64,000 nucleotides of DNA from Theocolax elegans (taxonomy: Eukaryota > Arthropoda > Insecta > Hymenoptera > Cerocephalidae), in the NCBI GenBank assembly GCA_026168455.1, contig CM047426.1:38379175-38443174 (forward strand). Reading direction: 5' to 3'. Positions 1 through 63,720 of the stretch are shown here, one piece after another. The first letter of the stretch is position 1. Each line of letters opens with the position of its first letter. The notes under the pieces were generated by a model. The model worked only from the letters and a program-made list of their open reading frames with translations. It did no database searches and had not been told where the DNA came from. The position numbers and the translations under genes are program-made.

Positions 1-52
1 AAGTGTACCCAAAATTTGGTGCATTTTAAAATTTTGATCGGACCACTTCACA
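1..52. mobile_element. Right end of a (TA)n-associated foldback element
   Basis: The stretch carries CCACTTCACATGGAATAC followed directly by a (TA) run. Its reverse complement resembles the left ends at 21844 and 61791 (TTCCAYGTGAAGTGATCC), and the inner part (GGTGCATTTTAAAATTTTG) is the reverse complement of 21871-21892. It is therefore the right terminus of a family member whose body lies outside the window. Confidence 0.6.
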
Positions 53-1220
53 TGGAATACCCCATATATATACTATTTAATAGAACAGACTACTTACATG
101 AAACAACAGGGGGTTTTGCTTTCAGATTTGACATTTAATGTTATTAAGATTATATTTGTAAAATTGTTATCTACATTACTTTAACAAAAGAATTATTATA
201 TTTTTACAAAATGGAAGGTGTTATTAAAAAAAATGTATCTTCGCTTAATCACGTAAAATAATTGTTTAAAATAAAGATATATTTAATTCACCTGACTTAT
301 GTGTATATTTATGTCACTGTCACAAGTGAGTGATTTACAAATTTTTTAACAAAACTTTATCAGGTGTTTACATCACCAAATTTAACTTTTTAATTATTGA
401 AATGACTAAAATTATTAAATTAAGGGTAGCTTTTTGTCTTTTGACTTATATATTGTAATTTCAAGGTTCGACGTCATATATTTAAAATACGTGATTTAAA
501 AATATGCTTAAAAATTTGTAAATTAGCCACGTGTCCTGTTCAAAATAATCAAGGATTATATATATTACCTACTATAATTTAACAATTTCTTTGATTTCTT
601 TAGGTAAATTTGGTAATATAATTAGGTAATTTAATCAGCTTTTTATTAAGTAAAGTAATTAGCTACAATTATATACCTAATTTTTTACATTACTTTTTAA
701 AAACCTAGGTTTGTAGAAAATTAATTTTTCTTTCATTTGCATAGTTTACAAAAGTTTTAAAACTTCAATTGAAACAAAAACTTAATATTAGATAAATATT
801 TTACCTAATAAAATCACCCGATAAAATTACCTAATTCTATTACGTAATAAAATCACCTGATTATTTTCTAATAAATAGTCATGCAACAAAATACTTGATA
901 AAATTACTTAAATTTATTACGTACGTTTTTTAGGTTATTAATGTAATATATTGCTAATCATATTAATATTAAGAACACTATTTTATACTACTACATAAAT
1001 TAATTGGATAATATTTTGAAGTGATATATTTACGTATTTAAATTCATATATTTAAGCAAAATTTCTATCAAAAAATCAAAAGCAAAAAATTTTACCTAAA
1101 TTTTTTACCTAAAATTTTTACCTGATAAAATTACCTAATTTACTTAAAAAAAATGAAACAAAAGTCACCTAAAATTTTCACCTGAAAATTTTAGGTGAAA
1201 ATATCATATGATTTTTTTCA
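53..1220. other. AT-rich non-coding stretch with ACCTAA-type repeats
   Basis: No coding potential is visible. From about 790 to 1200 the motif ACCTAAA/ACCTGATAAAATTACCT recurs many times in both orientations, and a short inverted repeat (CACCTAAAATTTTC versus GAAAATTTTAGGTG) sits near 1170-1195. It looks like decayed repeat sequence; the element type is not recognised. Confidence 0.4.
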
Positions 1221-20030: not shown

Positions 20031-21830
20031 CATAAAATAAAAACAATTACTTGAATTAGGAATTTTAAAAATGATGTTTTTTTTCTGTAGCGTTGACCTA
20101 CTTAAATCATAGGAAATAAACTAATAACAACCAAGTAATATGTTCTGTATAATAAATTACTGCAGGTATATTCTTAATTTAATAAGTAGAAAGATTATAC
20201 GTATGGAAACCAGACTATATTTTATTTGACTTACTTAAACAAGTAAATAATATATATAGTAATAAGAAAAATCCGTGAAAATACTATATCGTACAATTAA
20301 TATAAATTCCAATAATTTATAATGTAGAGAAAACCGATCAAATCTGACAATATTAATTTATTATAAATTCAATCATACTTACTTCTACAATCAAACTATG
20401 TAATTTCTTATAAATTACAGAAAAGAAAATATCCTTATATACAAACTTATCAAATTTGTAATTGAATTTTACAGTTAAAACCAATAACAATTGTGACGTT
20501 GCACCGGCACATCACTATTAAATATGCACTTTGTTACAATGTAATTAATAATTGTTACAGTGTAATTAATAACTTTAATTGTTGATATTGGCGATTTAAT
20601 GATTATGTTAATTGGTATAATGAATGATAATTTTATTAGTGTTTAATATTGCTTTATTGTAATTGGCGTTTGGGTTAATTAATATGAATATTAAATTCGT
20701 GTGTTGGATTATTTGCAATTCGCGGTTGCGTTGATTAATTGATAAATTGATCATCAGCGGCGCTGTAATTAATGACGCATGCTCATTAAAAATTTTATGG
20801 AAGGATAGCCTACTGCAGTTCTCTTTTTATTCTTCTTATTATTAGTTGAGGAGTGGGGGAGGTTTCTTATACTGCAGCGTGGCGCTGATGGTGGAGGCTC
20901 GCTATTCACCTTTAAGTCGAGTCTGCATTTGCAGTTCGATGATAATTATTTTGTGACTTTAAAATTACCGCTCGTGACGGCATTCTTTTTGCAAGGAAGT
21001 AAGTCCTTGGGTTACCAATCACGAGGAATCAACCACCATTGGAATTGAGGAGGGGAGGCTTGGGTCAGATAACAAAAGGGAAATTTTGCGCCTTTTTCAG
21101 GCAGTCGATTTTCTACCGGTCTGGTAAAACCATTAGCTGAGTTAAGCTAATTAATTATTGTTATACTTGAGTTATTAACTCCAGTTATTATGGTGAAGAG
21201 ACAGGTGAATATTTAATTAATTTTATATTGGTATATTATCTAGCAATCGACGTCTAATGCACTTATAATAATGTGCAATTCGTCGGTACTAGTTCGCAGC
21301 AATTGCTCCCGGAGACGCACCCTTGGTAACAAGGAGTTGCGCCCGGAGACGCGATCTCTAGCCACCATTTAATTATTTTGACCCAAGCCATCCCGTTCTT
21401 GTTCAGTGTTATCGGTGTTATTATTTTATTCGATTAATAATACTCATTATTTAATATTAATTATTGTATCGATTAATGTGTAGTTAAATTATTTGTTGAT
21501 AATTGAATAAACGCTAATCTCACTCATATCCGTCTAGTTAATTAACAGTGCCAATATCCCCCTTGTTCTTTCTCTCTCTACTATTAGTCCGGGAATATCA
21601 ATTATTAGTAATGTAGACTCTTTGCTCATTTTTCTTTTATTATATGAAACCTAACCGTTAATTATAAATACCTAATAAAAGAAACGTACGGGAAAACGAT
21701 TAATTAATTGTTAAGAAATATTTGTTTATTAATTAAAAGAGAAAGAAACAAAAATAGAAAAAGGAAATAACAAAGTAAAGTGCAATAAGCCATGTGAGGT
21801 CTCGCAATGAGGTATAATCGCCTGTAAATA
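20031..21830. other. Non-coding stretch; possible LTR-like start at about 20493
   Basis: TGTGACGTTGCACCGGCAC near 20493 resembles the TGTGAC starts of the LTRs at 17522, 43042 and 63721, and a GC-richer region with AATAAA (near 21510) follows. No matching 3' end or target duplication was found, so it is not called an element. Otherwise AT-rich with no ORF of note; 21827-21843 is a (TA) run. Confidence 0.3.
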
Positions 21831-21843
21831 TATATATATATAT

Positions 21844-22500
21844 GAGCTATTCCACGTGAAGTGATCCGATCAAAATTTTAAAATGCACCAAATATTGTAT
21901 ACACACTAAAATGTTTTTTAGAAAACAGAAAAAAATGTTTAGATTCCGGAATCTATTTGTTCAAAAGTTATTGTAAATCTATCAACTTTTTCTATATAAC
22001 ATTACATGTAACATTGGTTGCTAATTATGTCTAGAATTTATCCTTCTGGGTTATTGGGTTATTTATCCTTCTGGGTTAGAATTTCTAACCTCAAGATCAA
22101 TGTTACATAAACATGTCAATATTCAACTTGAAAAAATGTTAATACGCTCCAATTCATTTTTTCATTCAAGTCTTTAAGCCATAAATATTGAGATCTCACG
22201 GAGATTTTTTAGTTGAACATAGGCAGAAACCATTTTTCCATTAGAAATATCGATTGCAAATTGTTTATAGAGTTATTGCAAAAACACTAAGCCTTCAAAC
22301 AAAAAAATGTATTCTACGTTTTTTAATACTCTTTCCTGAAAAATCACTATTAAGTAGTTTGTCAATATTGCAAATTATATTTTTATTTTTTTAAACGTTC
22401 ATTTTTAAACAATAAATTTACATATACAAAAAAACTCGAGTATTTTTGTACAAAAAACAAATGTTAATTTACAAAATTAAAAAGATTATTTTTAAAGTTT
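21844..22500. mobile_element. Left arm of a (TA)n-associated foldback element
   Basis: Directly after a (TA) run comes GAGCTATTCCACGTGAAGTG then ATCCGATCAAAATTTTAAAA. The first 50 bases are the inverse of the window start. No matching right arm is found downstream, so this is a partial or single-armed copy; its right limit is uncertain. Confidence 0.5.
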
Positions 22501-31632: not shown

Positions 31633-31950
31633 CAAAATAACTTACAACTATTACAATTTATACAAACAAAGATCCTAAAAATTATAAACAAAAATACTTT
31701 TCAAATAATAAGCCCTTTAAACATACAAAATCTTTCGCATATCAATGTCTTCTTTATTACTATAACGATCTTAAAAGACAAATTTTAAATTCAGAAAGTA
31801 AAACAAGACGAAAACTTATAATTAAGCCTAAATTCGTTAAAACAGTGAGCACAAAAAATAGTTATATAAAAGCAATAGACACGTTTAATAACCTGACAAG
31901 AGATTTAAAGGTATTAGATATTAACAAGAAAAGTAACAAAAAAAAATAAA
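31072..31950 (+). pseudogene. LINE RT second copy with thumb and C-terminal region
   Basis: Open from 31072 to 31788, starting within the RT (RNGTQESDYQIIKTGVPQG), through SYADDTTITATGATW and the thumb (LRLNKLTLNIQKT, EVKYLGIHFD). A shift near 31730 moves the frame to CLYYYNDLKRQILN and on to a TAA near 31947. Joined to the linker at 28962-29670 it represents the true 3' end of ORF2. Confidence 0.75.
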
Positions 31951-38200: not shown

Positions 38201-39790
38201 GTAGAATCATCACGAATTTCCTCAGATATTCCCGAAATATCCAGGAAATCCCGTAATTAGTAGCATCATCCCGAAATAAATCAGAAATTCCCGAAATATC
38301 CAGGAAATACGATAATTAGTGGAGATATTTCAAAATATCTCAGAAATTCCCGAAATATCCTGGAAATCCCGTAATTAGTAGAGTTATCCAGAAATACCTC
38401 AGAAATTCCCGAAAGTTCCAGGAAATCCCTTAATTTGTAGAGTTATCCACAAATTCCTCAGAAATTCCCGAAATATCCAGGAAACCTTTATTTATTAGAG
38501 TTATCCAGAAATACCTCAGAAATACCAGAAATATCCAGGAAATCCCGTTATTATTGGTGTTATCACGAATTTCCTCAGAAATTCCCGAAATATCCAGGAA
38601 ATCCCGTAATTTGTATAGTCATCCCAAAATAGCTCAAATTTCCCGAAAGATCCAGGAAATCCCGTAATTGGTAGAGTTATCCAGAAATACCTTAGAAATT
38701 CCCGAAAGATGCAGGCAATCCCGTAATTGGTAGAGTCATCGCGAATTACCTCAGAAATTCCAGAAATATCCAGGAAATCCCTTATTTAGTAGAGTTATCC
38801 AGAAATAACTCAGAAATTCCCGAAATATCCAGGAAATCCTGTAATTTGTTTAGTCATCACGAAATACCTCAGCAATTCCCGAAATATCCAGGAAATCCCG
38901 TTATTATTGGTGTTATCCCGAATTTCCTCAGAAATTCCCGAAAGATCCAAGGAATCCCGTAGTTGGTAGAGTGATCACGAATTTCCTCAGAAATTCCCGA
39001 AATATCCAGGAAATCCCGTAATTTGTATAGTCATCCCAAAATAGCTCAAATTTCCCGAAAGATCCAGGAAATCCCGTAATTGGTAGAGTTATCCAGAAAT
39101 ACCTAAGAAATTCCCGAAAGATGCAGGCAATCCCGTAATTGGTAGAGTCATCGCGAATTACCTCAGAAATTCCAGAAATATCCAGGAAATCCCTTATTTA
39201 GTAGAGTTATCCAGAAATAACTCAGAAATTCCCGAAATATCCAGGAAATCCTGTAATTAGTAGAATCATCACGAATTTCCTCAGATATTCCCGAAATATC
39301 CTGGAAATCCCGTAATTAGTAGAGTTATCCAGAAATACCTCAGAAATTCCCGAAAGTTCCAGGAAATCCCGTAATAAGTAGCATCATCCCGAAATACCTC
39401 AGCAATTCCCGAAATATCCAGGAAATCCCGAAATTGGTAGAATCATCACGAATTTCCTCAGATATTCCCGAAATATCCAGGAAATCCCGTCATTAGTAGC
39501 GTCATCCCGAAATAAATCAGAAATTCCCGAAATATCCAGGAAATACCATAATTAGTGGAGACATTTCCAAATAACTCTGAAATTCCCGAAATATCCAGGA
39601 AATCCCTTAATTTGTAGAGTTATCCAGAAATTCCTCAGAAATTCCCGAAATATCCAGGAAATCCCGTAATTAGTAGATTCATCCCGAATTTCCTCAGAAA
39701 TTCGCGTAATATCCAGGAAATCCCGTAATTGGTAGATTCATCCAAAATTTCCTCCGAAATTCCCGAAAGATCTAGGAACTGTTTGTCATA
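35226..39790 (+). repeat. 59-bp satellite array with higher-order structure
   Basis: About 77 monomers of 59 bp, typified by TTCCCGAAATATCCAGGAAA then TCCCGTAATTAGTAGAGTTA, follow one another without interruption. Variant monomers return as blocks: GGAAACCTTTATTTATTAGA occurs at 35835, 37071 and 38480, giving higher-order periods of 1236 bp (21 monomers) and 1409 bp (24 monomers). Since 59 is not a multiple of three, the long minus-strand ORF here (37518-37934) is only the satellite read through its frames. Sub-motifs TCCAGGAAAT/ATTTCC give some dyad symmetry. Confidence 0.95.
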
Positions 39791-47636: not shown

Positions 47637-48113
47637 CTCAATAGTATAGTTTTTGGAAAATTAAAAAAAAACAGTATAACTTTGCATCAGCTTTATAAAA
47701 CGATGTGATATTGTAAAATGTTATAATAAATACTATTTGTTGTAAAAGTTCCGAGTGCTATTTTTTAGTTAATTATTTATAATAAAAAAATATTAAATAT
47801 TTAAAAAATCGAGTTAGGCTCTTTATTGCCGATATCGAATAAATAACTGAAGCTTTATGATGAAAAAATCACCTGAAAAACATTTGATTACTTAACATAC
47901 ATTTCTTATTAAATTTTGCTTACCAATCATAACATATAAAAATATTATTTTATGATTTTTCATGAGAATCTACAACTTTTTAATTTTAAAACAATTATCT
48001 TTTATTACAGTGTGCGTAAAAACACATTTTATGCATTGCTCTTCTTTAAAAAATCTCATTTACGCCCACGGTATATAAATATATATATATATATATATAA
48101 TTTATATATAAAT
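47637..48113. other. AT-rich 3' flank of the transposase and (TA)n run
   Basis: AATAAA (47726) lies about 90 bp after the stop and may be the polyadenylation signal. A (TA)n run lies at about 48085-48113. No gene. Confidence 0.4.
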
Positions 48114-48973
48114 TTTTAGAGTGTTATTTTAATTACGTTTAATGCTGCTAGCAATAAAAAAATTGTAATTTTCTTAAAATTTTTATTTTTTAACCATATT
48201 TATCGCTTTATAACTCAAATCCTATTGATTTTTTGTTATACATGTTGAATACAAAAAAGTTTGGAAATTTTCTGTAGAATCTGTTAAAAAACTTTAATCG
48301 CCCTAATTATATATATAGGTACTTGCTAGACATAAAATAAACCTTAAAATGCAAAAAAATTGGGTTTCGCTACAATTTTTTATCCCAAACCAAAAATCTA
48401 TTTAAACGTTGAAAAATTACCTTTCATTTGGTCTGTAGCTGGAGATTGGCAGACAATTCTGGTCCAAGATATGGACATTTTTGGACAAAACCAATACTAC
48501 AAATTTACTAAAGTGTCCATATCTTGTACCAGAATTGTCTGCCAGTCTCCAGCTACAGACCAAATGAAAGGTAATTTTTCAACGTTTAAATAGATTTTTG
48601 GTTTGGGATAAAAAATTGTAGCGAAACCCAATTATTTGCATTTTAAGGTTTATTTTATGTCTAGCAAGTACCTATATATATATAATTGGGGCGATTAAAG
48701 TTTTTTAGCAGATTCTACAGAAAATTTCCAAACTTTTTGGTATTCAACATGTATAACAAAAAATCAAAAGAATTTGAGTTATAAAGCGATAAATATGGTT
48801 AAAAAATAAAAAATTTAAGAAAATTACAATTTTTTGATTGCTAGCAGCATATAAACGTAATTAAAATAGCGCGCTAAAAATTTAGCTACTTCTTTTTTAA
48901 CCCATTTCTGAAAGAGTTCACCAGAAAAAAAAATTTTTATTTTTTGACTGGATCACTTCACGTGGAATAGCGC
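48114..48973. mobile_element. (TA)n-associated foldback element (palindrome)
   Basis: Arms about 48114-48480 and 48510-48885 are inverted copies centred near 48497; for example CTGTAGCTGGAGATTGGCAG against CTGCCAGTCTCCAGCTACAG. The right side extends to GGATCACTTCACGTGGAATA followed by GCGC and (TA)n, the family terminus. The left end lacks this terminus. The ORF that crosses the centre is an artefact of the palindrome. Confidence 0.75.
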
Positions 48974-49540
48974 ATATATATATACACGTGCGAAAGATGA
49001 TTTTTGACTCGCTTCGTTCGAGTGTTAAATTCGCACTTGTTAGAAAATTAACACTTTCGCTCTTGTATCAAACAGTACTGACACATTTTTCATGAAAACG
49101 AAAATATATTTTTCTAATTTAAGATAATAAATTCAGTTTATAAAGTGTTCATAAATATATATAAATAACTTTGTAAATTGAACTATTTTTCATCAGTATC
49201 TCTTCCAGTTCTTATATCCTCGTTTTTATTCACAAAAGAAAAAAATTCACATTAAACCATAGACTCATAGAATGTATTCTCATTTACTCATAGAATGTAG
49301 ATCTGCATCTTAATACGAGATATGAAAAAAATTTTTTTTTCCATTTTCTCGCATATAAAAAAGTTAAAAAATCTTTAATTGAGTCTCAGTTAATACAGTA
49401 TTTGTTTATTTAAAATGGTAAATTAATATAAATATACCTAGAATTATTTATGAATTAATTTAAAGAAAAAGAAAAAAAAATAAAGAATGAATGAGTGGAG
49501 GGTCCCATAAATAAAAAACACACAATGTCCGCGTATAACA
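48974..49540. other. AT-rich stretch, no gene seen
   Basis: Contains GACTCGCTTCGTTCGAGTGT near 49008 and otherwise AT-rich sequence without ORFs or recognised repeats. Confidence 0.3.
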
Positions 49541-50160
49541 AATGCACTTGCTTTGGGCGTAAAAACCCTCACGGATTAGAGGGAAAAGCCAAAGCAAGAT
49601 AATATTTATTTAATTTCTAAGAATTACAATTCTGCTCGCACGCTTACCTGGGCTTATAGCCCGCGCATATCTTCTCTATTTTATAACTGCCGCAGCTTCT
49701 CGTCCTGGAGTTGTAGCAAGCCGGGCCCGGGGAGCATTAAGGTAACTTACAACCTTGCACCAACCGTGCCCCGACGTCTCGGAGAGCCAGACGCAGAGGT
49801 GCCGGACAACACAAAAAAAACGTTGTCGCGAAAACGCTCGCCCTGGAACGGTTACGTTGAGCACGTAAGCGCCGTTCCCCAACAAATGTACGCACGCCTC
49901 GAGGCTCGAGCTACTTCAATCGAGTTTTACCGCACTAGCAGACCTTCGTTCTGAAAAGAACAAAAATCCGCAAGCCCTCGCAACCACGACCACCACCGAC
50001 AACACAGAAACAAACAATCCGCTACTCGATCAGACTCCTGAGACACGAACTTTTCGGCAATCTAATCAAGACTGATTCCTTGGCTCGCGCGCGGGGCCTG
50101 AACGCGCGCGTACCGCCGTGCGCGCGACGGTGAGCCGCCGAAAATTAAAGCGCGAAACAA
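49541..50160. other. GC-rich island of unknown nature
   Basis: Contrasts with AT-rich flanks. On the minus strand AATAAATATTATCTTGC is followed by GGGTTTTTACGCCCAAAGC, which could be the R-U5 part of an LTR, but no ends were found. Overlapping ORFs on both strands have no recognisable domain and look GC-driven. Confidence 0.3.
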
Positions 50161-50859
50161 ATCTATTAACGGCTTAAAATAAACTAACGCAAATTGACCC
50201 AACAGTATTTTTAAAATTAATATTATTCTATAATTTTTTAATTCAATTAATGTTAATTTAAACATTTTTCAAGTACAATATAAAATAAAAAAAGCGATTT
50301 TTAAAATTTTTTGTTATGCTAAAACATGGAAAAGAATTATTTTGTTCAAATCTGAAAAATATGTTCTGTGAGTAAAATAGCATCTTTGTTCGCTCTGAAG
50401 TTTTTCTCTATGTCTCTTCCTTTTTTAAATATTTCGATTTTTAAAAAAGCGTGTTTTTTTACTAAAAATTCTCCAATATTAGTAAAAAGTGGGTTAAAAA
50501 ACGCTCGACCTCCCATTTTAAAGCTAAAGCAATTACCTTCCAAACCTCGTTGGTTTTTTTGTGCTATCTGTACACTAAATCTACAACGGATCAAAAAGAG
50601 ACATGATGTTTAGTGTTTTCATCTCTTTTTAATATTTATAAAAAACACAAATTTGAATTTTTTAACTTTTGCAGTAGCATTTATTGAAAGCTTTTACCTG
50701 CTTTTTCGAAAGGCCTTGGATTTTTTAAGCTACCACGTTTTGTTGCTAAGCACTAAAACTTTGAAATTTTGAAAGTATGTGGTGGAGAGTGTATTTTGTA
50801 CTAATTTCCAAAAACTTGATGGAAACTTTTACGGAATCTTTCCACAGCAGGTAAACTGT
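50161..50859. other. AT-rich stretch, no gene seen
   Basis: Opposed ORFs at 50346-50613 overlap on the two strands and have no domain. No repeat recognised. Confidence 0.3.
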
Positions 50860-51320
50860 TCATTGCAATACTTTTAGTGAAACATTTTTGCATCATTCAT
50901 CGGGAATATTCCTTGATATATTGCTGCACTCTTCCATGATAAGCTTCTGGAAGCTTTTTGTGCGAGGCGTTACGTAACTTTTTTGAGCGTGTCCAGAAAG
51001 ATTATAGTAGTCTATCTAGCTGTCTTTCACGAAAGATTACCAGTTTTATTAATGCAATATTTTAATAAGCTTTCACGCAACCCTAATTTTATGTTCCACT
51101 GTCACTTATCGCGCTTTTTACCGAAAATTTGCAGGAATCTTGCCAGAAACATTGTTTTTTGATCATTCACAAAAATTGCATTGGAATATTGCTAAAATCT
51201 TTTATGCAAGCTTTCTGCAAACTACTTACTACAAATCCCACATTCTTTCTCTGAACTTTTCTGGAACATTATGCAGCAATATTCCTTATGCATAACTTTA
51301 AGACAAATTAACCAATTTGA
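50860..51320. repeat. Fragment of the CCCACACAGCAT repeat family
   Basis: Carries TTCATCGGGAATATTCCTTG, TTCTGGAAGCTTTTTGTG and other motifs related to 25324-25785 and 53260-53735. No clear ends here. Confidence 0.4.
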
Positions 51321-51385
51321 GCTTACTATTTTTTAATCTATGTCTTGTAACAATGAGACTCATTTGCTACAAATTAAAAAAAGGA

Positions 51386-51457
51386 ACGGACGTCAGGTCT
51401 TGAACCCGAGCCCCTTCGGATCCGAAGGCGTTCACGCTACCACTGCGCTACGCCCGC
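51386..51457 (-). tRNA. tRNA-like sequence, Arg(UCG)-type, anticodon stem broken
   Basis: On the minus strand 72 nt fold as a tRNA. Acceptor GCGGGCG pairs with CGTCCGT (seven pairs, two of them G-U), D-arm GCGC/GCGT closes AGTGGTA, and T-arm TCGGG/CCTGA closes TTCAAGA. At the canonical place the anticodon loop is CTTCGGA (anticodon TCG), but its stem (AACGC/TCCGA) does not pair. No CCA is encoded. It is therefore more likely a tRNA pseudogene or a SINE head than a working tRNA. Confidence 0.5.
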
Positions 51458-51943
51458 AATTGGTCGTAGCTATACTTTTCCGCGTCTTCTGCCTACCGAT
51501 ACGCGCGCCATATGCCAAGTGCCGATTCTTGCGCTGGCCGCGTCGGTACTACAGAGCCCTAAATGACGGGTGATCTGTTCTCATGCAGATCCACCACGTC
51601 ACAGTCTCCTTCATCTCAGTTTTTTGGTGGTTTTGAGTTTCAGTGTATATTTCTATTCGTTTACGAGTTATAAGCGATTAAAATGGGAGCAATTTTTCTT
51701 CAAAATTTGCTTAAGTGGCTTTTAATTTTCACAAATCAGAGCGTTAGAGTCTAAAATTTTGAATTTTTTCATATTTTTATATTACAAAACGTATTCCAGA
51801 GTTTGGTTAAGATCCGTGACCCGAAGGTGAGACAAGCTCCTAGTTAGTGTATCTATAATATATAGTTTTTTAATATTTTAATTTAATTTATTATTATTTA
51901 TAATTTTCTATAATTTTATTTATTGCAGTTTATTTTATAACTG
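51458..51943. other. Unassigned stretch, possibly tRNA-derived SINE body
   Basis: On the minus strand this is upstream of the tRNA-like sequence. It has GGCCGCGTCGGTACTACAGA and otherwise AT-rich DNA. No gene. Confidence 0.25.
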
Positions 51944-52954
51944 TGTTACGACCCGACTTCATGAAGTCGGTGTCTTCGCGGGAGTTCCGCTAAACAATAA
52001 TTATTTGTTTAAAGCGGTAGACTCGCTGTCATTTCGAGAGCCTCTCTGTTTCGTTACCTATGCGTTATGTGAATGTGACGTTACGTTACGTTTAGGGACT
52101 TATGAATAACGTGACTGCTAGTGAGCGATATATCACGTATATAAACGTTTATGTAGGATTTATTTGTTAGGATAGTATTATTATGAAATAGTTATTCATT
52201 TATATTGTTTTATTTAAAGTATCGATATATACTTTTATTATTATACTTTATCAAATACAGTATTTATAATAAGCCATAATTCCCAAAATAAATTCCCGAA
52301 TAATCAGATTTTACATGTATGTTATTATTCTTAAGTTACACGATATTAATTCGTGGCAATGAGTTAAGCTTTAATATAATGATGTAGAGTCTTACTGCGA
52401 ATGCTTGATTTGCTGGATTCGCGTTCAGCGGGCCCTTATCCTTCTACTACCGTCGAATTTCGTTAACGACTACTCGAAGGTCGGATCCTTTTCGTCGGAT
52501 GCACGATATTAATCGGTTCTAATCGATTAATATCTCTGTGAGATTTATTTAATTCACTAACGCCGGCGATCCTACGGCGGAGACACTATTCTATCAACTC
52601 ACTTCCTGGGACACGTTAACCAGGTTGTGTACGTTGGACTCGCGGGTTCTGTAGGTCCGGAGGCAAACGGCTCGGAGAAAGGAATTAGTCTGCCGTATTG
52701 TTCGAATTTACAATTAGCAGAGCCGTTTGCGTCCTTGATTTGAACCAATAAGCGATCGACGCGCCTAAAGCTTAGATTCTTGACTTTATTGCAAAAATGC
52801 TGCGTCGATGCTTTAGCGGTCAGCAACCGATGCCGTTTCGCGAAGTAAGCTTAATTTTCATTTTTACGCGTGTTCTTTATAATTCGATTTTATCAACTTA
52901 TAAAAATATATATTATTATAGCTAAATATATTTAGACGTCTATGGGATGTCACA
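51944..52954 (-). mobile_element. Solo LTR, 1,011 bp, TSD ACTG
   Basis: It starts TGTTACGACCCG and ends GGGATGTCACA in plus orientation, flanked by ACTG at 51940-51943 and 52955-52958. By comparison with the other LTRs in the window (TGTGAC... start, ...TACA or TAACA end), the minus strand is probably the transcribed strand (start TGTGACATCCC). A short perfect inverted repeat GACTTCATGAAGTC lies near 51956. No retroviral-type genes; the ORF at 52599-52826 has no domain. Confidence 0.75.
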
Positions 52955-53215
52955 ACTGTAAATAAATGTACATAAATTTATATAAACGATAAAAAATGTA
53001 TACATTCGTAAATAAATATAAATAAATGTAAATATCTGTAATGAATTATATATACGGTTATAAAAAATTATTTGTTGCCAGTAAATTTTTCTTTGAAATA
53101 ATTAGAAATGTAAATAACAGTATACAAATATAATTAAAGATATATAAATGTAAATAAATGTAAAGAAAAGTAAATAAACGTAAATAAAAGTAGATACAGT
53201 TTCAATTGTCACATT
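52955..53215 (+). repeat. Low-complexity (TAAATGTAAA)n-like repeat
   Basis: GTAAATAAATGTAMATAAAT-type units recur from 52958 to about 53200 with irregular spacing. Confidence 0.6.
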
Positions 53216-53254
53216 TAGCTGCATTTATATACTTTTATTTACTTTTTAAAATTT

Positions 53255-53735
53255 TATTTACTTTTTAAATTTTGGAAGGCTTTTACACAAGCTTTCTAGA
53301 AGTTAGTGACCAGTGATTGCCTCATTCTTTCTCTGAAATTTTCTGGAACCTTAGGCAGCAATATTCCTTGAATGGTTGCAATAATATATTTCAATAGCTT
53401 GGATCAAACTTTCGCTGTATCATTCCTTTGAATCTGTCATAAATCATGCTTAAGTATTTTTGGTTGTCTTTCATGAAAGTTTTCTGTGATGAAGTTTGAA
53501 ACATTTCTAGAAATGTTGCTGCAATCTTTTGGCAATGTTTCATGCAATATAGCATTTTATCGTTATTTATATTTTTCTTGGAATGTTGCTAAAAAATTAC
53601 ACAACGCTTTCGTAGAATGTTCCTTTGAAAGATTGCTGTAAGATTCAGTCAAGTTTTAGGGAGGTTGCAGCAAACTTGCAAAGGAATATTGCATGAATCT
53701 TTCATCGGGAAGCTTTTATGCTGTGTGGGAATCAG
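53255..53735. mobile_element. CCCACACAGCAT-family element, right-ended copy
   Basis: It ends GGGAAGCTTTTATGCTGTG followed by TGGGA, the inverse of the start at 25324. The interior has TTGCAGCAAACTTGCAAAGG and TTTCATGAAAGTTTTC-type sequence. A left end is not clear. Confidence 0.5.
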
Positions 53736-54019
53736 CGAATTATGCAACGATATAAATACAAAATATAAAATATAATTAAATATTGATAAATCATAAAGTT
53801 AAATAATTACTTGGAACTAAGTCTTTATTCTCACAATCTACAAATGAACATACATTCGATAATCTTCAATTTTGAGTATCCAGATCGATTTCGGCGTAAT
53901 TAGAAATAAGTAGATCTGTTAATTGTACATATAACTACAAAATATAATTTATTATTAATATCAATATTAATAAATAATAAAGATAAAAAATTATTTACGA
54001 AGAATTTCTTTATACATAA
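53736..54019. other. AT-rich stretch, no gene seen
   Basis: No feature recognised. Confidence 0.3.
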
Positions 54020-54335
54020 TACTGCAGTAAGCAGTATTAAAATATCTCCCCGATGGAAGATTCATGCTATACAGACTTTTTTGAAAGATTGGCCGTTACG
54101 TTACTGCAATATTTGAGACAATATTTCAGCAAGCTTCCATGCAAGCTAAACTTTATTTTCCATTGTGACTTTCGGTGCGCTTTTCTGAAAACTGGCAGGA
54201 CGCTTGCCGGAAATATTCTCTTTCGATCTTCCTTAAAAATTTCATTAGAATCTTGCTGGAAGCTATTAGGGAAGCATTTTACAAAGCATGTACTGTACAT
54301 TGTGACATTCTTTTGTTAAACCTTTTTGCATAAGG
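54020..54335. repeat. Further fragment of the CCCACACAGCAT family
   Basis: ATTTCAGCAAGCTTCCATGC, GCAGGACGCTTGCCGGAAAT and CTTGCTGGAAGC match the family vocabulary (AAGCTTCC, TTGCWG). Overlapping ORFs on both strands have no domain. Confidence 0.4.
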
Positions 54336-54621
54336 ATCACCGTCAATGTTCCCATCCGTCAATGCTCCCGAGAATCAGAGAGCGCGATCGTTTAACTGCT
54401 CCCACCAATCATGTCAAACATTAGGAGATACGTTTTCATAGAGGGGATAATAATAATTATTGGTAATGCTTTGTCGGTAATATAGTTTACATATTTTTCA
54501 TCTGAATTTACGTAAATAGATGTCACTAGCGTCATGCATTACTGTTATTAGAATGAAAATAAATAGCCAATTTAGGAAACAAAATGGAAAGTGTTGAGAT
54601 TAATAGTTTCAGAGAAAAAAA

Positions 54622-54624
<3 letters not shown>
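54336..54624. other. Unassigned stretch
   Basis: Contains a moderate-GC patch (54340-54420) with CCGAGAATCAGAGAGCGCGA; no gene or repeat recognised. Confidence 0.25.
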
Positions 54625-54652
<28 letters not shown>

Positions 54653-56308
54653 GGGTGGTTCTCTGTGACATCGAAGATGAAAAAAATAAATATTGCTATA
54701 ACTGTGGGAATATGTTTTAGAGGTATCCAGTAGTTCTCCTGAATTTTTTCAGATTTTTTCTGCGCCATTATTTTAAGTTACAGAGAGTCAAAGTTGACAT
54801 TTTAGCACTTTTTTGCATTATATGCCCATTTTCATGAATTTTTAGCTCCCAGGGGATGCATTTTTCACTAAAAACATAAGTATGACTTTTTTTGTAAAAT
54901 TTTCCGAACTTTTCATTAAAAATACTTTTAAAGACATAAATGTATGCTGTCACACTCTTGTAAGCCATTTAAACCTTAAATAGTGAAAATCAGCAATTCT
55001 GCTCCGGACTCTGGTAACCTAATACTGTCTAAAAGATGTCTTTTTATAGTCAGAAACTGCCTAAAAATTTCCAGAGTGGGTCTAAATCATTAAGATCACT
55101 TATGGTCAAAATATCCGGGAAAAGTGCCAGAAATATTAATAGAAATGTATATTTGTTGCCTTATAACGATGAATCTAGTAGCATGATCATTGCAAAAAAA
55201 TTTATGCACTTACCTTGGAGTGGTAGAAAAGTATCTCCACTTGTTTCAGTATCCATCTAATCCCCTGTAAGCTGCTAAAAATACAAATATTATTATAAAA
55301 TTATAAAAAATTATTTTTTATACATTTATAATGCTGGATTTTTAGTTTTACATCCCTTACAAGAATTATAATACTAATCTGAAGCATTACTATAAAAGTA
55401 TCAACATTATTATTATTATTATTCAGCAATACATTGTTTAGATTTCACAAACTTATCACTGGCACGTTATCATATTATTCATTATAATTATATATCCGAT
55501 TTATTTATATATCTTTTGTATTAAATACGTATATTCAGTTATTGTAATAATGATGTTTATATATTTATAGTAAAACATGCAGATTAGTATTATAATTCTT
55601 GTAAGGGATGTAAAACTAAAAATTCAGCATTATAAATGTTTAAAAATTAATTTTTTACATTTCTATAATAATATTTGTATTTTTGGCAGCTTACAGGGGA
55701 TTAGATGGATACTGAAACAAGTGAAGATACTTTTCTACTACTCCAAGGTAAGTGCACAAATTTTTTTGCAATGATCATGCTAATAGATTCATCGTTATAA
55801 GGCAACAAATATACATTTCTATTAATATTTCGGGCACTTTTCCCGGATATTTTGACCATAAGTGATCTTAATGATTTAGACCCACTCTGGAAATTTTTAG
55901 GCAGTTTCTGACTATAAAAAGACATCTTTTAGACAGTATTAGGTTACCAGAGTCCGGAGCAGAATTGCTGATTTTCACTATTTAAGGTTTAAATGGCTTA
56001 CAAGAGTGTGACAGCATACATTTATGTCTTTAAAAGTATTTTTAATGAAAAGTTCGGAAAATTTTACAAAAAAAGTCATACTTATGTTTTTAGTGAAAAA
56101 TGCATCCCCTGGGAGGTAAAAATTCATGAAAATGGGCATATAATGCAAAAAAGTGCTAAAATGTCAACTTTGACTCTCTGTAACTTAAAATAATGGCGCA
56201 GAAAAAATCTGAAAAAATTCAGGAGAACTACTGGATACCTCTAAAACATATTCCCACAGTTATAGCAATATTTATTTTTTTCATCTTCGATGTCACAGAG
56301 AACCACCC
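54653..56308. mobile_element. Large near-perfect palindromic element between (TA)n runs
   Basis: Arms 54653-55381 and 55580-56308 (about 729 bp each) are inverted copies with very few differences, such as GGAGCTAAAAATTC-type against GGAGGTAAAAATTC. They surround a spacer of about 198 bp. Both ends read GGGTGGTTCTCTGTGACATC inward and abut (TA)n runs (54625-54652 and 56309-56332). ORFs of 60-80 codons exist in both arms but mirror one another, lack domains and are not supported as genes. The terminus differs from the TTCCAYGTGAAGTG type, so this is a sister family. Confidence 0.8.
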
Positions 56309-56332
56309 ATATATATATATATATATATATAT

Positions 56333-56860
56333 GGACTATTTCACGTCAAGTGGTATGATGAAAATTTTAAATCGCACCAAATTTTGAGAACAGCTGTAAA
56401 TATCTTCCAGAAAATAGAAAAAAAATTTTAGGTGTTAAAAATAATTTACCTGATAGTTATTCCACCATAAATGGAAATTTTTCAATTTTTTAGAAAAATT
56501 GCTATTTTTAAAGCCATTTATCTCAAAATCTATTGATTTTTTTGAAAAACATTGCAAACAACTTTTGTTCAAAACAATCTTTGGAACTAATCTACCTAGG
56601 TAACAATTCGTAATTTTAAAATCTCGAAGCGATAGGACACCCGGAAATATTGATTATCAAAAAAAGGTGACCACGCCACAATTGATTTTGATCTAACACC
56701 GCTCAAAAGTTCACATTTTTCGAGAGCTTTCGAATGGCGATGGTTAGATTATTGGCCAAGACTGCTAGTAAAAGTTATGCCTTAAAATACATGAAAATTA
56801 GTGATTTTATGAGGTTTATGAGAAATCTTATACTCGGCAGCGACGGAATATTTATGTAAT
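56333..56860. mobile_element. Left arm of a (TA)n-associated foldback element
   Basis: It starts GGACTATTTCACGTCAAGTG directly after the (TA)n run that ends the palindrome at 56308, and continues GATGAAAATTTTAAATCGCA, related to 21844 and the window start. No inverse arm was found downstream; the right limit is approximate, near a (TA)-rich run. Confidence 0.5.
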
Positions 56861-57475
56861 ATATATGTATATATATATTCAAATTTATTTTTTCAAGTAT
56901 CGATAATATATGTATTTTTTCCGTGCGCAAAAAAAGTTGTGAATATAACTTGACAGAATGTGTATCAGTTTATTCATTGCTGATAAAACTCATGAAATTT
57001 ATAAAGGAGAACGCCAACGGAAAGCATTTGAAGTATATCTATATACATTCAAAATTTGTATATATAGATATACTTGCAATGTTAAAAATGAAACTTTGTC
57101 GGTTAATTTTGGCTTTTCCTTTCATTTCCCGAAAATCATTTTTTTTGCAAATGAAATATCGCTAGTCAAAGTAAAAGATAAGGCATGATTTATACGTCTT
57201 GGAACGTCTTTATACTTATTGGCGGACTCCTTTGTACTAAGTAATAATAACGGATCTAAAATTCAATATCATGCTTTAAATTGTTTGTAGATAAAATAAA
57301 TATTAATCAAGTATAATATAAAATGTAATATAAATTGTGAATTACAATAGATAAGTTTTTCAAAATTTATTAATTTAGGAGAATTTGATATCCGAAAAAA
57401 TACACCAAATTTAAATGTTACTGATATTAAATATTTCGCAGACGTCGCCTCCTCGTCGTGCCTAAGATTTCAGGA
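56861..57475. other. AT-rich stretch, no gene seen
   Basis: Two overlapping ORFs (56923-57188) have no domain. ATATCTATATACATTC/TATATAGATATAC forms a short inverted repeat near 57035-57070. Confidence 0.3.
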
Positions 57476-57558
57476 TTCTATATATATGTAATATAGAAAT
57501 ATACATATATCTGTGTGTGAGTACGTGCGTATGCGTGTGCGTGTGCGTGTGCGTGTGC

Positions 57559-57599
<41 letters not shown>

Positions 57600-57600
57600 G
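57476..57600. repeat. Compound (GT)n/(TA)n microsatellite
   Basis: GTGCGTGTGCGTGTGCGTGT is followed by an uninterrupted (TA)n of about 40 bp ending near 57596. CCTAAGATTTCAGGATTCTA upstream and TCCTGTAATCTTAGACACGG downstream are roughly inverted. Confidence 0.85.
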
Positions 57601-58330
57601 AGGAGGGTAGTCTCCAATCCTGTAATCTTAGACACGGCCGCGGCGGAATATTTATATGTTATACATATTGCCACAACGTCTCTTGAGAGCATATATTCGT
57701 GAAGTAAAATAGAAATTTTACATATATAAGATAGTTTGCGTATAATCTCAATAGACTTCCCAGTGACTCCAGTACAGTGGATATAAATTAATAATTATTT
57801 AAACTTGATGAAATTCACTACAACTCCAGTGACTGGAAATAAATAGTACAATATTAACTCGAGTAACTGGACCATGTGGTGGTGGAAGTCCATTCAGATT
57901 ATATTAGTTTATACTTCTCACATAAATGAGCGGTTTGATTACAGGATCTTATCGGTTACGCCTGTCGTAGAAGCAACCGCTATTGAAACGTTTATCGTAT
58001 TTTATGAGGTATTGCTGTATTTTCTATTTACAACGAATAGGCATATATCTGGATTTCAAATAATTAATGATTTTTCATGATTGCAATTTATCGGGTTGAA
58101 TAGGACATTTCACTATAAAGTCGAGCATTATTTATCCGAATCTACCGGTATATTCTAATGTTGTCAAGCAATCTATGTGGTTCGTTTATAGGGTTTAATC
58201 AGTATTGTCACATAAATGAGCGGTTTGATTACAGGATCTTATGCCTTAGCTTATGCCTGTCGTAGAAGCAACCACTATTGAATCGTTTATCGTATTTATT
58301 AATAATATTAATATTAATAAAAGTTCATCT
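57601..58330 (+). repeat. Imperfect duplication of about 80 bp, 290 bp apart
   Basis: CACATAAATGAGCGGTTTGA, ACAGGATCTTAT, GCCTGTCGTAGAAGCAACCR and CGTTTATCGTATTT occur at about 57918-58002 and again at 58209-58293. No gene. Confidence 0.6.
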
Positions 58331-59165
58331 GAAATTGATGTAAAGTTTTTATAAGGTTTTGTTACAATTACTGACAAATAAAATAAAGTTTATACTAAGT
58401 TTAACCGAACTTAATACCAACGTGATATCAAGTTCAAGTATATAAAGTAATATAATGTTGATATCAACATACCCAAAGAAAATTTTTAAAAATCTTCTTT
58501 AACTGACATCATTAAGTATACATCGGTTAGAAAAATGGATATTTGAGATGTAACCAAAAAATTCGAACCTGCCACTGAAAAGTGTTGTCCATTTCGTTAG
58601 TCTTGAAGACATAACCTGAAAGAAGAACATTAAAAAAACCACAAAGTATCTATGTTTACATATTAAAATATTAATTAAAACATAATTAAATACATAAAAT
58701 TTTCAATTTAAATAGAAAAAACTTATCTGATGCAGCCGTTCAAAATGAATCTTCATGTGTCATATTTTCTATCCTGACATCGTTGTCCGGATTACGCCTT
58801 AATACGTACACCGATTGCGCAACGATGCTCTGTCAACTCGTTTACACACTAAACGGCGACTCACGATTATTACAATTGCACAAACAATCGTTCAGATTCG
58901 CAAAACATAACCTGGTCCGCTGATCCTTTTCGCGCTGCTCTCGCGAGTGAACTGACGCTAGGGTTAGTTGCCAAAACAACATTCTTTTGTTTTTTTTTCA
59001 TCGGCTAATTTATCGATATCTAACCGATTCGTCAGTACCATTGCGAATGCGGTGCGAGAAGGACCAGCAGATCAGGTTATTTTTCAAATCTGACAGTTTA
59101 ATAACTGCAATTATAACAACGTTGCCACGACGTTGCTACAAAGTTGTGTGCTAGTAGGGTTATTA
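58331..59165. other. Unassigned stretch with GC-richer centre
   Basis: The part from 58770 to 59160 is less AT-rich and contains short inverted motifs (CAACGTTGCCACGACGTTGC near 59120). It may be an old DNA element; no ORF. Confidence 0.3.
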
Positions 59166-59665
59166 AGTATACTTATGTAATTCGTATTATTGTTGGCGCA
59201 GCCGATACAACCCGATAGGCCGTCTGCCCCTTACATGCTTCGAACCTCGTAAAACCTTATAAAGACGTCAAATATTCGAAAACCGGATACATGCCTATTT
59301 GCTATAAATAATAATACGGAATTGCCTGGTAGAATGGGATTAGCGATTTGATTAAGATTTGTTATTACTGGCGCAGCCGGTAATACCCGATAGGTCGTAT
59401 GCCCAATACATGCGTCGATCCTCGTAAAACCTTATAAAAGAACTGTAATGATTGCTTTAAAATTATGGAATTTAACGGTAGACACCGATAACTGTTAGTG
59501 GACAATATAGTGAAAAGCCTTATAGAACTTTATTCATTCAATGCACACTAAGACGTCAAATATTCGAAAACCGGATACATGATTATTTGTTATAAATAAT
59601 AAATACGGAATTGCCTGATAGAACGCGATTAACAATTTGATTAAGATTGTTTTTTATGGATGTCT
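59166..59665 (+). repeat. Tandem repeat of about 200 bp, partial third copy
   Basis: TGGCGCAGCCG, CCCGATAGGYCGT and CCTCGTAAAACCTTATAAA recur at about 59195 and 59370. GACGTCAAATATTCGAAAAC and TACGGAATTGCCTG recur at about 59263 and 59552. Confidence 0.6.
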
Positions 59666-60250
59666 CAGCTCATACGATCCGGTAAACGAACCGCCCATTT
59701 ATTTTGTTGATCATCATATTGTAATATAAAATGTTTTTTTCTTTTGTGAGGTTTATCTTATAAAATACTATAGGCATTTATTGTATAGTATGGTATGAGG
59801 TTTTTGCACCCGGGATACCTTATAGACTCGATTTATAAACCTACCATTAGAAAGCAAAAAAAGACATAAACATATACAGTAATTCCATGATAAGTACTTA
59901 TTAAATTTTTATCGGGAAATTTGTATGAATTATAACCTTTTCATTTGTTTTATTATAGAACCCGATTAATATTTTCTTGGATGTACTTGTGTAATTCATG
60001 TAGTAAAACATCTATACAGGCTTATAGTTTTTCAATCAATTTATTACGATACATGCCGATTCTGAATTCATATTGGTAAAGTGAATAGATTTCTATAAAT
60101 AATTATATGAGCATATCTCTATAAAAGCCTATAAGTTTAATAGTCTCATAGAAACTGATATATCTTTTACCAGGTAAAACTTATAAAAACTAAATTTCGG
60201 AACTTGTGATTCGTAGCTGTGGGGAATTCATTATAGGTACCGATAAAAAA
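59666..60250. other. AT-rich stretch, no gene seen
   Basis: No ORF or repeat recognised. Confidence 0.3.
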
Positions 60251-60268
60251 GAAATCGCTCTATATATT

Positions 60269-60716
60269 TTTTTTTTTTTGTTTATTCTTGATTTTGTGCC
60301 CTCGTTTTTCCTGGCGCTTCCTAGTGTATATCCCCTGGAGGACTTTAACGGTGTCCACCTACCACCTATGTGTGGGTGCTTTATCCCTCTCTTAAAAACC
60401 CCACCATCTCGCATTCGCCCGGGGTTATGCCCGTGGATGAGGGAAACCTGTGAAGCAGGGAAAACCTCACCCGAGATGGACGGTGTATTCGAAACATTCT
60501 TTTTGGGTGTCAAAGTCACATTGCGTAGGCCTTGCCACCGAAACCGATTGTTTCACATCTTCCGCTAACGTTGTGAAGTGTGAAAAAAACACTTAACCCG
60601 CCACGAAAGCCAAGCGACCGAGAACGTCACCCATCCACTTGGGTACCGCGCTCAATACTGCTTAACTTCCGTGACCGGCCGAGGTGCGTCTCCGCCACTC
60701 CGCCACCGCGTCGGTT
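60269..60716 (-). mobile_element. 5S-rRNA-derived SINE, copy 2
   Basis: Read on the minus strand: head GGTGGCGGAGTGGCGGAGAC, then the 5S-like AAGTTAAGCAGTATTGAGCG and GTGGATGGGTGACG, a body similar to the copy at 19567 (CACGGGCATAACCCCGGGCG, AATGCGAGA), and an A-rich 3' tail. GAAATCGCTCTATATATT flanks both sides (60251-60268 and 60717-60734), an 18-bp target duplication. The tail and duplication show LINE-mediated insertion. The 5S box A and C are kept, while much of the 5S 5' half is replaced. Confidence 0.85.
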
Positions 60717-60734
60717 GAAATCGCTCTATATATT

Positions 60735-60874
60735 ACTATAAAATTTTTATCGACACCCCGATACAATGAGCCATTATTTTATCGGATTTTATAAGGTTTT
60801 TTCAACAGAGTAGTAATTATCATCGATATAAGAGGATATTAGTAGCTCAAAAATAACTCGACTGAAATACTTAA
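60735..60874. other. AT-rich stretch, no gene seen
   Basis: No feature recognised. Confidence 0.3.
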
Positions 60875-61755
60875 TCAATGGTGGTGCAAGTATTATTTTA
60901 TTTAAAGAGCATAAAAAAGAGAGAAATTATTTTTTATTAGTTATCCAGAAATTAATTTTGCACAAATGAATTATTATTATTCTATAAAATTGTTTATCTA
61001 TTGATGCAAACCACGGGAAGGATAGACATTGTTTATTTAAAGATAATAAAAAAAAAGAAGTTTTCTTTTTATCAGTTTTGTGGAAATTAATAAAAACTAT
61101 TATAGAGTTTAAGCAAAATATATAAAAGTTTAATTAAAAAAAATACAATGTATGGTATCGTAAACAATACTTATCGATTATTCCGCTTTGATTTCAGTAC
61201 TTTCTATTGCAGAAACTTTTTATGGAGTTTAAGCAAAATATATAAATTTTAATTAAAATACAATCTATGGTATCGAAAAAATATGTCAATTATTCCGCTT
61301 TGATTTCAGTACTTTCTATTGCAGAACCTTTATGGAATTTAAGCAAAAAAATATATAAATATTTAATTAAAATTACTTGTCGATTATTCGGCATTGATTT
61401 CAGTACTTTCTATTGCAGAAACTTTTTATGAAGTTTAAGCAAAATATAAGTAGCAATAGGATGAGAGTAATAATTACAGATTCTTTTATCAGATAAAATT
61501 TTTGAAAATGTGATAAGAAACCATACTTGCGAATGTTGACATACCTTCGTAGAAGATGTTTTATATAAAGTACTGTCTAGAGGCACAAATTCAACGTGGA
61601 ATATTTAATAATGAATAATAAACTTATTGAAAGTGAAACTGTAATAAATAAATAAAAAATTTCTGTTGATGTATATAAAATACTTGCCATTGCCATTTTG
61701 ATTTCAGTAATTTCAATTGCAGAAAATTTTTATGGAGCTTAATATTATACACACA

Positions 61756-61790
<35 letters not shown>
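60875..61790 (+). repeat. Dispersed repeat with four or more TTTCAGTACTTTCTATTGCAG units, ending in (TA)n
   Basis: It starts AATGGTGGTGCAAGTATTAT like the copy at 24338. Units GATTTCAGTACTTTCTATTG plus CAGAAACTTTTTATGGAGTT occur at about 61190, 61300, 61395 and (diverged) 61700. The last unit leads into a (TA)n run (61759-61790), at which the palindrome that follows begins. Confidence 0.65.
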
Positions 61791-61792
<2 letters not shown>

Positions 61793-63149
61793 GAGATTCC
61801 ATGTGAAGTGATCCAGGTAAAAAATAGAATTTTGTTTTAATGTATGGAATCAGTAGAAAACTACTTGAATAGAGTGTAGCTAAATTTTTATACCTAAATT
61901 TCAATTAGTACCAGAGCTGTAACCAATCAAAAAATCGAATTTTTTTAAAAAAATGACTTATGGACCATTTTTATCACTACATAACTCAAAATCTAACAAT
62001 TTTTTCTTATATACATTAAATTTGAAAAAGTTTATAAATTTCAAGAAGAATCAGTTGAAATATTTCATTTATATTAGTTTAACACATTGAATATAGTTAT
62101 AATTAATAAAAATCTTTATAGTAAAAAAAAGGGTTGTACGATCAAAAATATTTTATCCATCCAAGAATCTAAATCATCGATGATTAATTACCTTCAAAAT
62201 GGTGCAAAGGTTGAGTGCGGCAGAGCATTTCAGACAAAGTTATGGTGTTTTTAGGCAAATTTCTTAAAAAAAGAGAGCAAATGCATTTTATGAAAAAAAC
62301 AGACTAACCGTATACTTGCATTCAAACAATATGGCATTATTATTCCTCAATATTACTAAAATATACTATTTATTGTTAGTTATTGATACTTTTATTTAGT
62401 TGTTATTTAAGTCTGATACTTTTATACCTACTGTTATATAATTGAATTTATTGGAATTATAAAAAGTTTCAGGTATTTATCCAATTATATAACAGGTATA
62501 ACTGCTTATACCTACTGCTTTGTGTTTGTAAGCAGCTTAGAGATTAAAAAGTATCAATAACTAACAATAAATAGTATATTTTAGTAATATTGAGGAATAA
62601 TAATGCCATATTGTTTGAATGCAAGTATACGGTTAGTCTGTTTTTTTCATAAAATGCATTTGCTCTCTTTTTTTAAGAAATTTGCCTAAAAACACCATAA
62701 CTTTGTCTGAAATGCTCTGCCGCACTCAAACTTTGCACCATTTTGAAGGTAATTAATCATCGATGAATTAGATTCTTGGATGGATAAAATATTTTTGATC
62801 GAACAACCCTTTTTTTTACTATAAAGGTTTTTATTAATTATAACTATATTCAATGTGTTAAACTAATATAAATGAAATATTTCAACTGATTCTACTTGAA
62901 ATTTATAAACTTTTTCAAATTTAATGTATATAAGAAAAAATTGTTAGATTTTGAGTTATGTAGTGATAAAAATGGCCAATAAGTCATTTTTTAAAAAAAA
63001 TTCGATTTTTTGATTGGTTACAGCTCTGGTACTAATTGAAATTTAGGTCTAAAAATTTAGCTACACTTTATTCAAGTAGTTTTCTACTGATTCCATACAT
63101 TAAAACAAAATTCTATTTTTTACCTGGATCACTTCACATGGAATCTCCC
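61791..63149. mobile_element. (TA)n-associated foldback element, complete
   Basis: It begins GGGAGATTCCATGTGAAGTG and ends with its inverse CACTTCACATGGAATCTCCC, both directly bounded by (TA)n. Arms of about 600 bp (61791 to about 62392 and about 62547 to 63149) are almost identical inverted copies around a spacer of about 155 bp. No coding capacity. This is the best-preserved member of the family in the window. Confidence 0.85.
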
Positions 63150-63720
63150 ATATATATATATATAATCTATAAAATTTGTTACTTTTTTGATACATTTACG
63201 ATGGCAATATAGATCCCGCCATGCATAAATTATATGATAAGACATTTATGTTTATCAAAGAAGCTATAATAATATATAAGTTACTTTGATGATTCAAGGT
63301 TACTTATTCGATAAATTAACAATAATTTTAAAAAACGTGTATTTAAAAAAAATACTGATTTAAACAGCAACTATTCTCTTCACCTGTCTTCATATTTTGA
63401 GCATAGATTAAATTTGCAATAACATTCTGAAAAAAATGGAGTAAAAGTTTCTTTTTAATTAATGTTGGTGTCTTTTGTAGTATTTTAATTGGTTTTGTCA
63501 TTTCTCCTTTAAATCTGGCCAAATATTTGTCCTGGGATTCTGAAAGAGCACAAAATTCTACATAAGAGTATGTAAAAGCAAAATTTTTTCAACGCCAATA
63601 ACAACAACTATTGCATTGTAAAATCGCTAAAAAATTTTACGCTTCAGCGCAGAAGTGAGATATTTTTTTCGTATTGTTCTTATAAACTATTAAAAAAATT
63701 TTTTTACTTTATCTATTGTT
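63150..63720. other. AT-rich stretch, no gene seen
   Basis: (TA)n at 63150-63162, then AT-rich DNA without ORFs. Confidence 0.3.

Follow-up and report, generated by a model that had tools for sequence, protein, structure and literature searches.

TA-flanked foldback elements in the genome of Theocolax elegans: four families, short ATAT cores and the TA tracts beside them

This article concerns four families of foldback elements, here called A to D, which adjoin runs of alternating T and A in Theocolax elegans (Insecta; Hymenoptera; Cerocephalidae), and which I examined in a window of 64,000 nucleotides (the whole stretch analysed: assembly GCA_026168455.1, contig CM047426.1, positions 38,379,175-38,443,174 of the forward strand) and across the 658 Mb of genome searched. 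The reading I favour, at a probability of roughly 0.7, is that a transposase acting in trans inserts them into a core containing ATAT with a 4-bp duplication, and that the TA later often grows and the elements stack. The closest described systems are from plants, and the likenesses given here are those found in the available parts of each source. MuTAnT of Medicago truncatula also consists of foldbacks inside (TA)n with GGGG/CCCC ends, and the TA repeats at its empty sites, nine on average, are fewer than those in the flanks of occupied ones, whereas it differs in belonging to a plant, in its size and number (90% at 200-300 bp, 218 copies), in its 9-nt duplication outside microsatellites and in having a known mudrA-like autonomous copy (PMC4486113). 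The SaTar families of guayule and rice, including Micron, are linked end to end through microsatellites, as seen here too, but are Mutator-like elements of plants, with 10-bp duplications in non-microsatellite copies (guayule) and with microsatellites other than TA as well (PMC5907723). Ac-mMITE-1 and Ac-mMITE-2 of pineapple resemble A to D as very abundant, clustered, (TA)n-flanked families of miniature inverted-repeat transposable elements (MITEs) with a terminal sequence in common, and are unlike them in host, in length (210-570 bp) and in the 9/10-bp duplications of their non-microsatellite copies (PMC8449440). TAFT/TAFTA of maize, as told in PMC5907723, shows empty TA of 6-8 bp expanding after insertion up to (TA)50, again in a plant and in a Mutator-like element.

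There are likenesses among animals too. ISL2EU of the PHIS superfamily shares GG ends and an AT-type duplication, but its target is A|AT|T with a 2-bp duplication, and the word 'microsatellite' is absent from the available text (PMC4482050). ATon of Aedes aegypti is likewise a non-autonomous inverted-repeat element, AT-specific and with no known partner; its members are small (ATon-I 112 bp, ATon-II 144 bp), and the available text mentions no (TA)n tracts (PMC3422177). Tm1 of root-knot nematodes is of foldback type, with duplications of 8-10 bp that follow no target consensus and, in the portion available, no microsatellite mentioned (PMC3169594), and a looser link is offered by penaeid shrimp, where transposons are tied to the expansion of simple repeats, (AT)n included, although there it is chiefly En-Spm and Gypsy elements that carry the repeats, and the available text describes no foldback families flush with TA (PMC7878876). 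In what is available of a survey of arthropod Mutator-like elements (MULEs), 'microsatellite' stands solely in a reference title (PMC13359780). The literature searched, judged on titles and the openings of abstracts, gave no animal foldback family that targets (TA)n, which is weak evidence of absence, and contained none of six terminus strings.

A sequence-only reading of the window had named six loci that start or end exactly at (TA)n runs. The shared terminus is matched there five times at up to three mismatches, against 0.05 expected in shuffled sequence, and the sister (B) terminus twice, against 0 expected; all eight termini in the window (63 minus, 21844 plus, 48973 minus, 54653 plus, 56308 minus, 56333 plus, 61791 plus and 63149 minus) adjoin 9 bp or more of alternating TA, which bears that reading out. 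The features, with their strand, are these:

1..63, minus strand: right end of a family C foldback that continues past the window edge; its terminus GGGGTATTCCATGTG lies at 63, and 61 bp match C at 96.7%
64..72, no strand: TA run of 9 bp adjoining the C terminus
21828..21843, no strand: TA run
21844..22169, plus strand: degenerate C-related element with the left end alone recognised, 70% to C over 368 bp
48109..48973, minus strand: A-related foldback, about 90 bp of the left end gone, arms 93% alike, right terminus at 48973
48974..48984, no strand: TA run of 11 bp at the right terminus of the A-related foldback
54625..54652, no strand: TA run of 28 bp on the left of B
54653..56308, plus strand: complete family B foldback, 1656 bp, arms 97% alike
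56309..56332, no strand: TA run of 24 bp common to B and D
56333..56820 (end approximate), plus strand: left half of a family D foldback, a partial copy that matches D at 90% over 493 bp
61759..61790, no strand: TA run of 32 bp on the left of A
61791..63149, plus strand: complete family A foldback, 1359 bp, arms 98% alike
63150..63164, no strand: TA run on the right of A

The loci are real, although some limits needed correction: the first ends at 63 and not at 52; the locus at 48973 reaches (TA)n with its right end and not with its truncated left; and the ends at 21844 and 56333 are genuine but belong to the degenerate relative of C, which has no recognised second end, and to the partial copy of D. 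The longest stop-to-stop frames are 75 amino acids in the complete B element and 58 in the complete A element, and the latter folds into a single hairpin.

Genome-wide, four families are distinguished, all beginning with GGG and all near-perfect inverted repeats over their full length:

Family A, 1359 bp (GGGAGATTCCATGTGAAGTG)
Family B, 1656 bp (GGGTGGTTCTCTGTGAC)
Family C, 995 bp (GGGGTATTCCACGTGAAGTGG)
Family D, 947 bp (GGGCTATTTCACGTCAAGTGG)

Among 19 complete copies measured, the arms are 87-100% identical and no frame is longer than 111 amino acids, which bears out the description of complete members such as 54653-56308 and 61791-63149 as near-perfect palindromes without coding capacity. 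Across some 200 bases C and D agree at about 70%; A has the terminal 40 bases in common and weak similarity farther inward, and B has in common with the others only GGG and the TA habit. A copy's own arms are closer to each other than to the nearest other copy in seven of eight A elements (one tie), none of four B elements and two of six C elements (one tie), a pattern that may reflect arm homogenisation or subfamilies. With full-length inverted repeats, no coding capacity and thousands of dispersed termini the elements are MITE-like; they are non-autonomous foldback DNA transposons, ordinary in kind, and it is the target and the apparent generation of microsatellites that are unusual. The suspicion that they are no standard insect class was right in that a multi-family foldback group tied to (TA)n exists, but its behaviour had already been described for Mutator-like elements of plants.

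Contact with TA holds across the genome, and the termini number in the thousands rather than sitting at one locus. The A-type core TTCCAYGTGAAGTGATCC occurs 1923 times (955+968 by strand), and nine alternating TA bases, TATATATAT, stand at the exact offset in 1436 of these (721+715) while the reversed patterns give 0, so most A copies do not lie outside TA, although the nine bases are missing there in 487, which tells against the rule; C and D termini preceded by ATAT amount to 7595 (3733+3862). Exact B termini are more numerous than those of A (4783; 2373+2410), and B, taken for a sister type, has a distinct terminus indeed but behaves like the rest. In a sample of 82 termini (up to five mismatches) from 262,020 bases, comprising the window and 20 loci fetched for A ends, the adjoining alternating run is at least 4 bases long in 77, at least 8 in 65 and at least 12 in 32, set against a background in which ATATATAT stands before 0.23% of all positions. 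The same sample holds 65 TA tracts of 12 bp or more, 28 touching a terminus and 37 not. The base before TAT|GGGAGA is other than A in only 10 termini, as compared with BATAT in 1503. This last count bears on a rather improbable explanation, that A to D are of Tc1/mariner or ISL2EU type and duplicate 2 bp (either AT, or TA if the ends are TGGG..CCCA): were the target simply TA, position -4 would not have to be A, yet A is nearly always present there.

Neighbouring elements are joined through one TA tract in nine pairs among the 82 termini, eight of them by pure TA, in the combinations A-B, B-A, A-D, C-B and B-D; at L019 (3304-3322; loci are cited by number where they must be told apart) a truncated A meets a truncated B without a TA tract. 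A BLAST map of the 20 loci showed no clear case of an element inside another, although no systematic count was made. By eye, at L010 5510-6900 and L019 8300-9290, A and C elements occupy the TA in the middle of a further inverted repeat, the outer repeats being GTTTACTC..GGTAAAC and TTTATGTGCACA..TTTATGTGCACA. At L014, L015, L020 and L022, and also at L010, whole segments of element plus flank are tandemly repeated, with an identity of about 95-98% that reaches 100% across 398 bases at L010; these could be true duplications or merged haplotypes of the assembly.

The evidence that carries the argument comes from unoccupied copies of the same sites. Joined flanks of 25 elements were queried genome-wide, 40 candidates being scored per search; the choice took in seven of 11 sites considered and L025, and four of 20 further pairs were dropped, their flank being another module or a simple repeat. 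Paralogs spanning the junction were found for six of the 25, and two more sites (L014 and L020) came from comparing the locus with itself, whereas the 19 elements that gave no empty copy mean little, because only 40 candidates were scored per search and L099 and L081 filled most of their lists. Two would-be sites, L026 and the C copy of L025, were set aside, since their two flanks derive from different sequences. In all there are 54 unoccupied copies over eight occupied sites, with a TA core of 3-11 bp at six sites and 6-18 bp at two (runs beginning with T may be counted one base short), and at the seven sites that retain both ends the TA beside the element, both flanks taken together, comes to 11-60 bp, in large excess over the empty copies at five. 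At L025 (A; 20 of 34 empty copies fetched) the runs are 3-5 in all 20, mostly AAAATATACTATT or near it, and the occupied site has 5+11, net 14; at L012 (A; five of eight fetched, extending in the search only 23-35 bases beyond the junction) 5-7 against 50+10; at L018 (A; a single empty copy) 7 against 18+13; at L073 (B; eight of 10) 4-10 against 25+14; and at L099 (A; 12 of 40) 6-17 against 9+30, so that at these five sites the occupied TA exceeds the core plus four bases. L020 (A) has 15 in its empty copy and 10+11 when occupied, net 6, and L014 (A, right end gone) reads CTATATATT when empty and CTAT| on the occupied left. A precise insertion with target duplication is seen at L019 (C; the six longest empty copies fetched), the sole clean site: occupied GCATAATATAT|..|ATATACGTG, empty GCATAATATATACGTG in L050, which is 98% alike, for a net gain of 4 bp, ATAT. 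Eight region pairs around BTAT ends, of which only three had both ends recognised, did not resolve the duplication.

The short core of the empty copies and the larger amount of TA at most occupied sites make a short ATAT core the target, with long tracts often arising with or after insertion, and the evidence leans towards a short core chosen and a long tract often grown. The question whether (TA)n is the target or arrives with the element thus has neither simple answer. In the reading I favour, A to D (0.95-1.66 kb, ends GGG...CCC) would be mobilised in trans by a transposase and inserted into a short alternating TA core containing ATAT, whose four bases would be duplicated, so that every end would begin as TAT|GGG. 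The adjacent TA stretches would then often expand well past the length of the empty site, most likely through slippage of replication or repair next to a long hairpin, and the grown tracts, as targets themselves, would let elements stack side by side through common TA runs.

Several observations weigh against this account. L019, L020 and L014 display little or no growth of TA, and the 4-bp gain comes from one clean site, where slippage of a single unit would alter it, while L020 gives 6 and L025 14. Since the empty copies are for the most part paralogs with about 79-95% identity, what the occupied site read before insertion is not seen exactly, and the insertion may have picked the one copy whose core had already grown. 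The empty TA of up to about 18 bp at L099 and L020, together with the (AT)n tail of an L081-type repeat without elements, means that true microsatellites are also targeted. In that last case the L081 A element has on its left the tail end of a repeat that is abundant (115 bases recur with 100% identity at 26 or more other places), very uniform and closed by CTTACCTTTACA(AT)n, like the tail of a retroposon; all 12 fetched copies (L124-L135) run into (AT)5 or more, as the query required. It is conceivable, if improbable, that the elements simply choose long (TA)n tracts that already exist and that no growth follows, as the empty copies of L099 with up to (TA)9, that of L020 with (AT)7, the A or B terminus directly after two of those 12 repeats and the lack of growth at L019 would suggest; however, none of 41 empty copies at L025, L012, L073, L019, L018 and L014 has a run above 11 bp, and five of these six sites (those with both ends present) sum to 11-60 bp of TA when occupied.

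The length of the duplication speaks to the remaining explanations. That A to D are animal MULEs, the counterpart of MuTAnT, SaTar and Ac-mMITE, with duplications of 8-11 bp masked by the TA repetition, is unlikely, although they share with those plant elements the foldback form, the GGG ends, the (TA)n flanks and the end-to-end arrays, and at least 142 MULE-domain matches occur in the genome (150 of 261 candidates scored). If the ends are taken as TGGG..CCCA, the flanks of L013 form an 8-bp TATGTATA repeat, a duplication that the L019 empty site sets back and that nonetheless remains a point for MULEs. Yet L019 gains 4 bp and not 8-11, the other sites being too rich in TA to tell, and A-D ends are absent at three of the 142 MULE loci (L030-L032, short flanks), where two weak AT-rich B matches of 28 and 36 bases were all that appeared. 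Since the one clean site gives 4 bp, A to D are not filed as MULEs, SaTar-like as they are in their working. As for the 2-bp types, a TA duplication with ends TGGG..CCCA suits L019 equally well, and ISL2EU, limited to animals in the available text, combines an AT duplication with GG ends and has inverted repeats between 6 and 259 bp long (PMC4482050). An AT duplication next to GGG ends, however, predicts a gain of 2 bp at L019, where 4 were found, and the core is ATAT rather than A|AT|T. Finally, excised circles carrying TA filler might recombine homologously into genomic TA, so that the element would bring its tracts along, as has been proposed for SaTars (PMC5907723); this would account for long tracts on both sides and for stacking, but I consider it very unlikely here, as the insertions at L019 and L014 add no TA beyond a few bases. 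Sola elements make 4-bp duplications, the length seen at L019. The enzymes that would mark these types are a Sola transposase, a DDE transposase for Tc1/mariner, and for ISL2EU a transposase of PHIS type with a YqaJ protein.

The preferred reading, insertion into an ATAT core by a transposase in trans, calls for an autonomous partner, and the longer relative with a transposase, which the sequence-only reading suggested looking for, did not turn up: in the 20 loci (frames listed for L011, L014, L015 and L018, without Pfam comparison) and four long-spaced pairs of termini, A-D ends nowhere enclosed a frame recognisable as a transposase. Individual candidates proved to be other things, L018 an A element with other repeats inside, L121 a rearranged D, L122 a rearranged C, and L123 (C1:27974225-27982420) a B element interrupted by some 6.6 kb of inserted DNA whose broken gag-pol-like frames look, read by eye, like those of a Gypsy-type element; L011 keeps 43 bp of an A end and continues as unrelated DNA. 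ATATGGGNNATTCCAYGTGAAGTG and the B terminus have 0 matches in viral contigs, and ATATGGGNNATTCCACGTGAAGTG (C form only) has 0 in contigs of prokaryote genomes.

Other repeats and frames lie around the foldbacks in the window. Left of the foldback at 48109, positions 46137-47633 hold two frames matching Transposase_21 (E 2.6e-11) and DUF4218 (2.8e-7), beyond which, on the side away from the foldback, no A-D end appeared; I take the Transposase_21 match to be of the CACTA type. Two near-identical sets of transposase-like frames (6452-7146 and 9059-9762) stand amid large direct and inverted repeats, their HTH_Tnp_Tc3_2 match being weak (E 0.0061, under the cut-off), and 26030-31949 has retroelement-like frames with coding stretches repeated internally, including RVT_1 (3.9e-32) in 29606-30316. 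At 35237-39778 a 59-bp unit (AATATCCAGGAAATCCCG..., 81% matches) is repeated about 77 times in an array.

Whether microsatellite-associated transposons seek out microsatellites or create them is hard to decide because their flanks are repetitive, and a single genome in which the target sites also occur many times unoccupied makes the question measurable. The TA-flanked foldback habit itself is known from plants, and an animal family with apparent generation of microsatellites is possibly new, although the evidence for novelty is weak. I would put forward only tentatively, and with more doubt than conviction, the wider proposal that A to D are an animal lineage of TA-targeting foldbacks that is not Mutator-like, for which an ATAT target is obligatory and 4 bp are duplicated, and which makes TA microsatellites and then lands in them, so that the two amplify each other. 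If A to D are indeed not Mutator-like, the habit would have arisen more than once.

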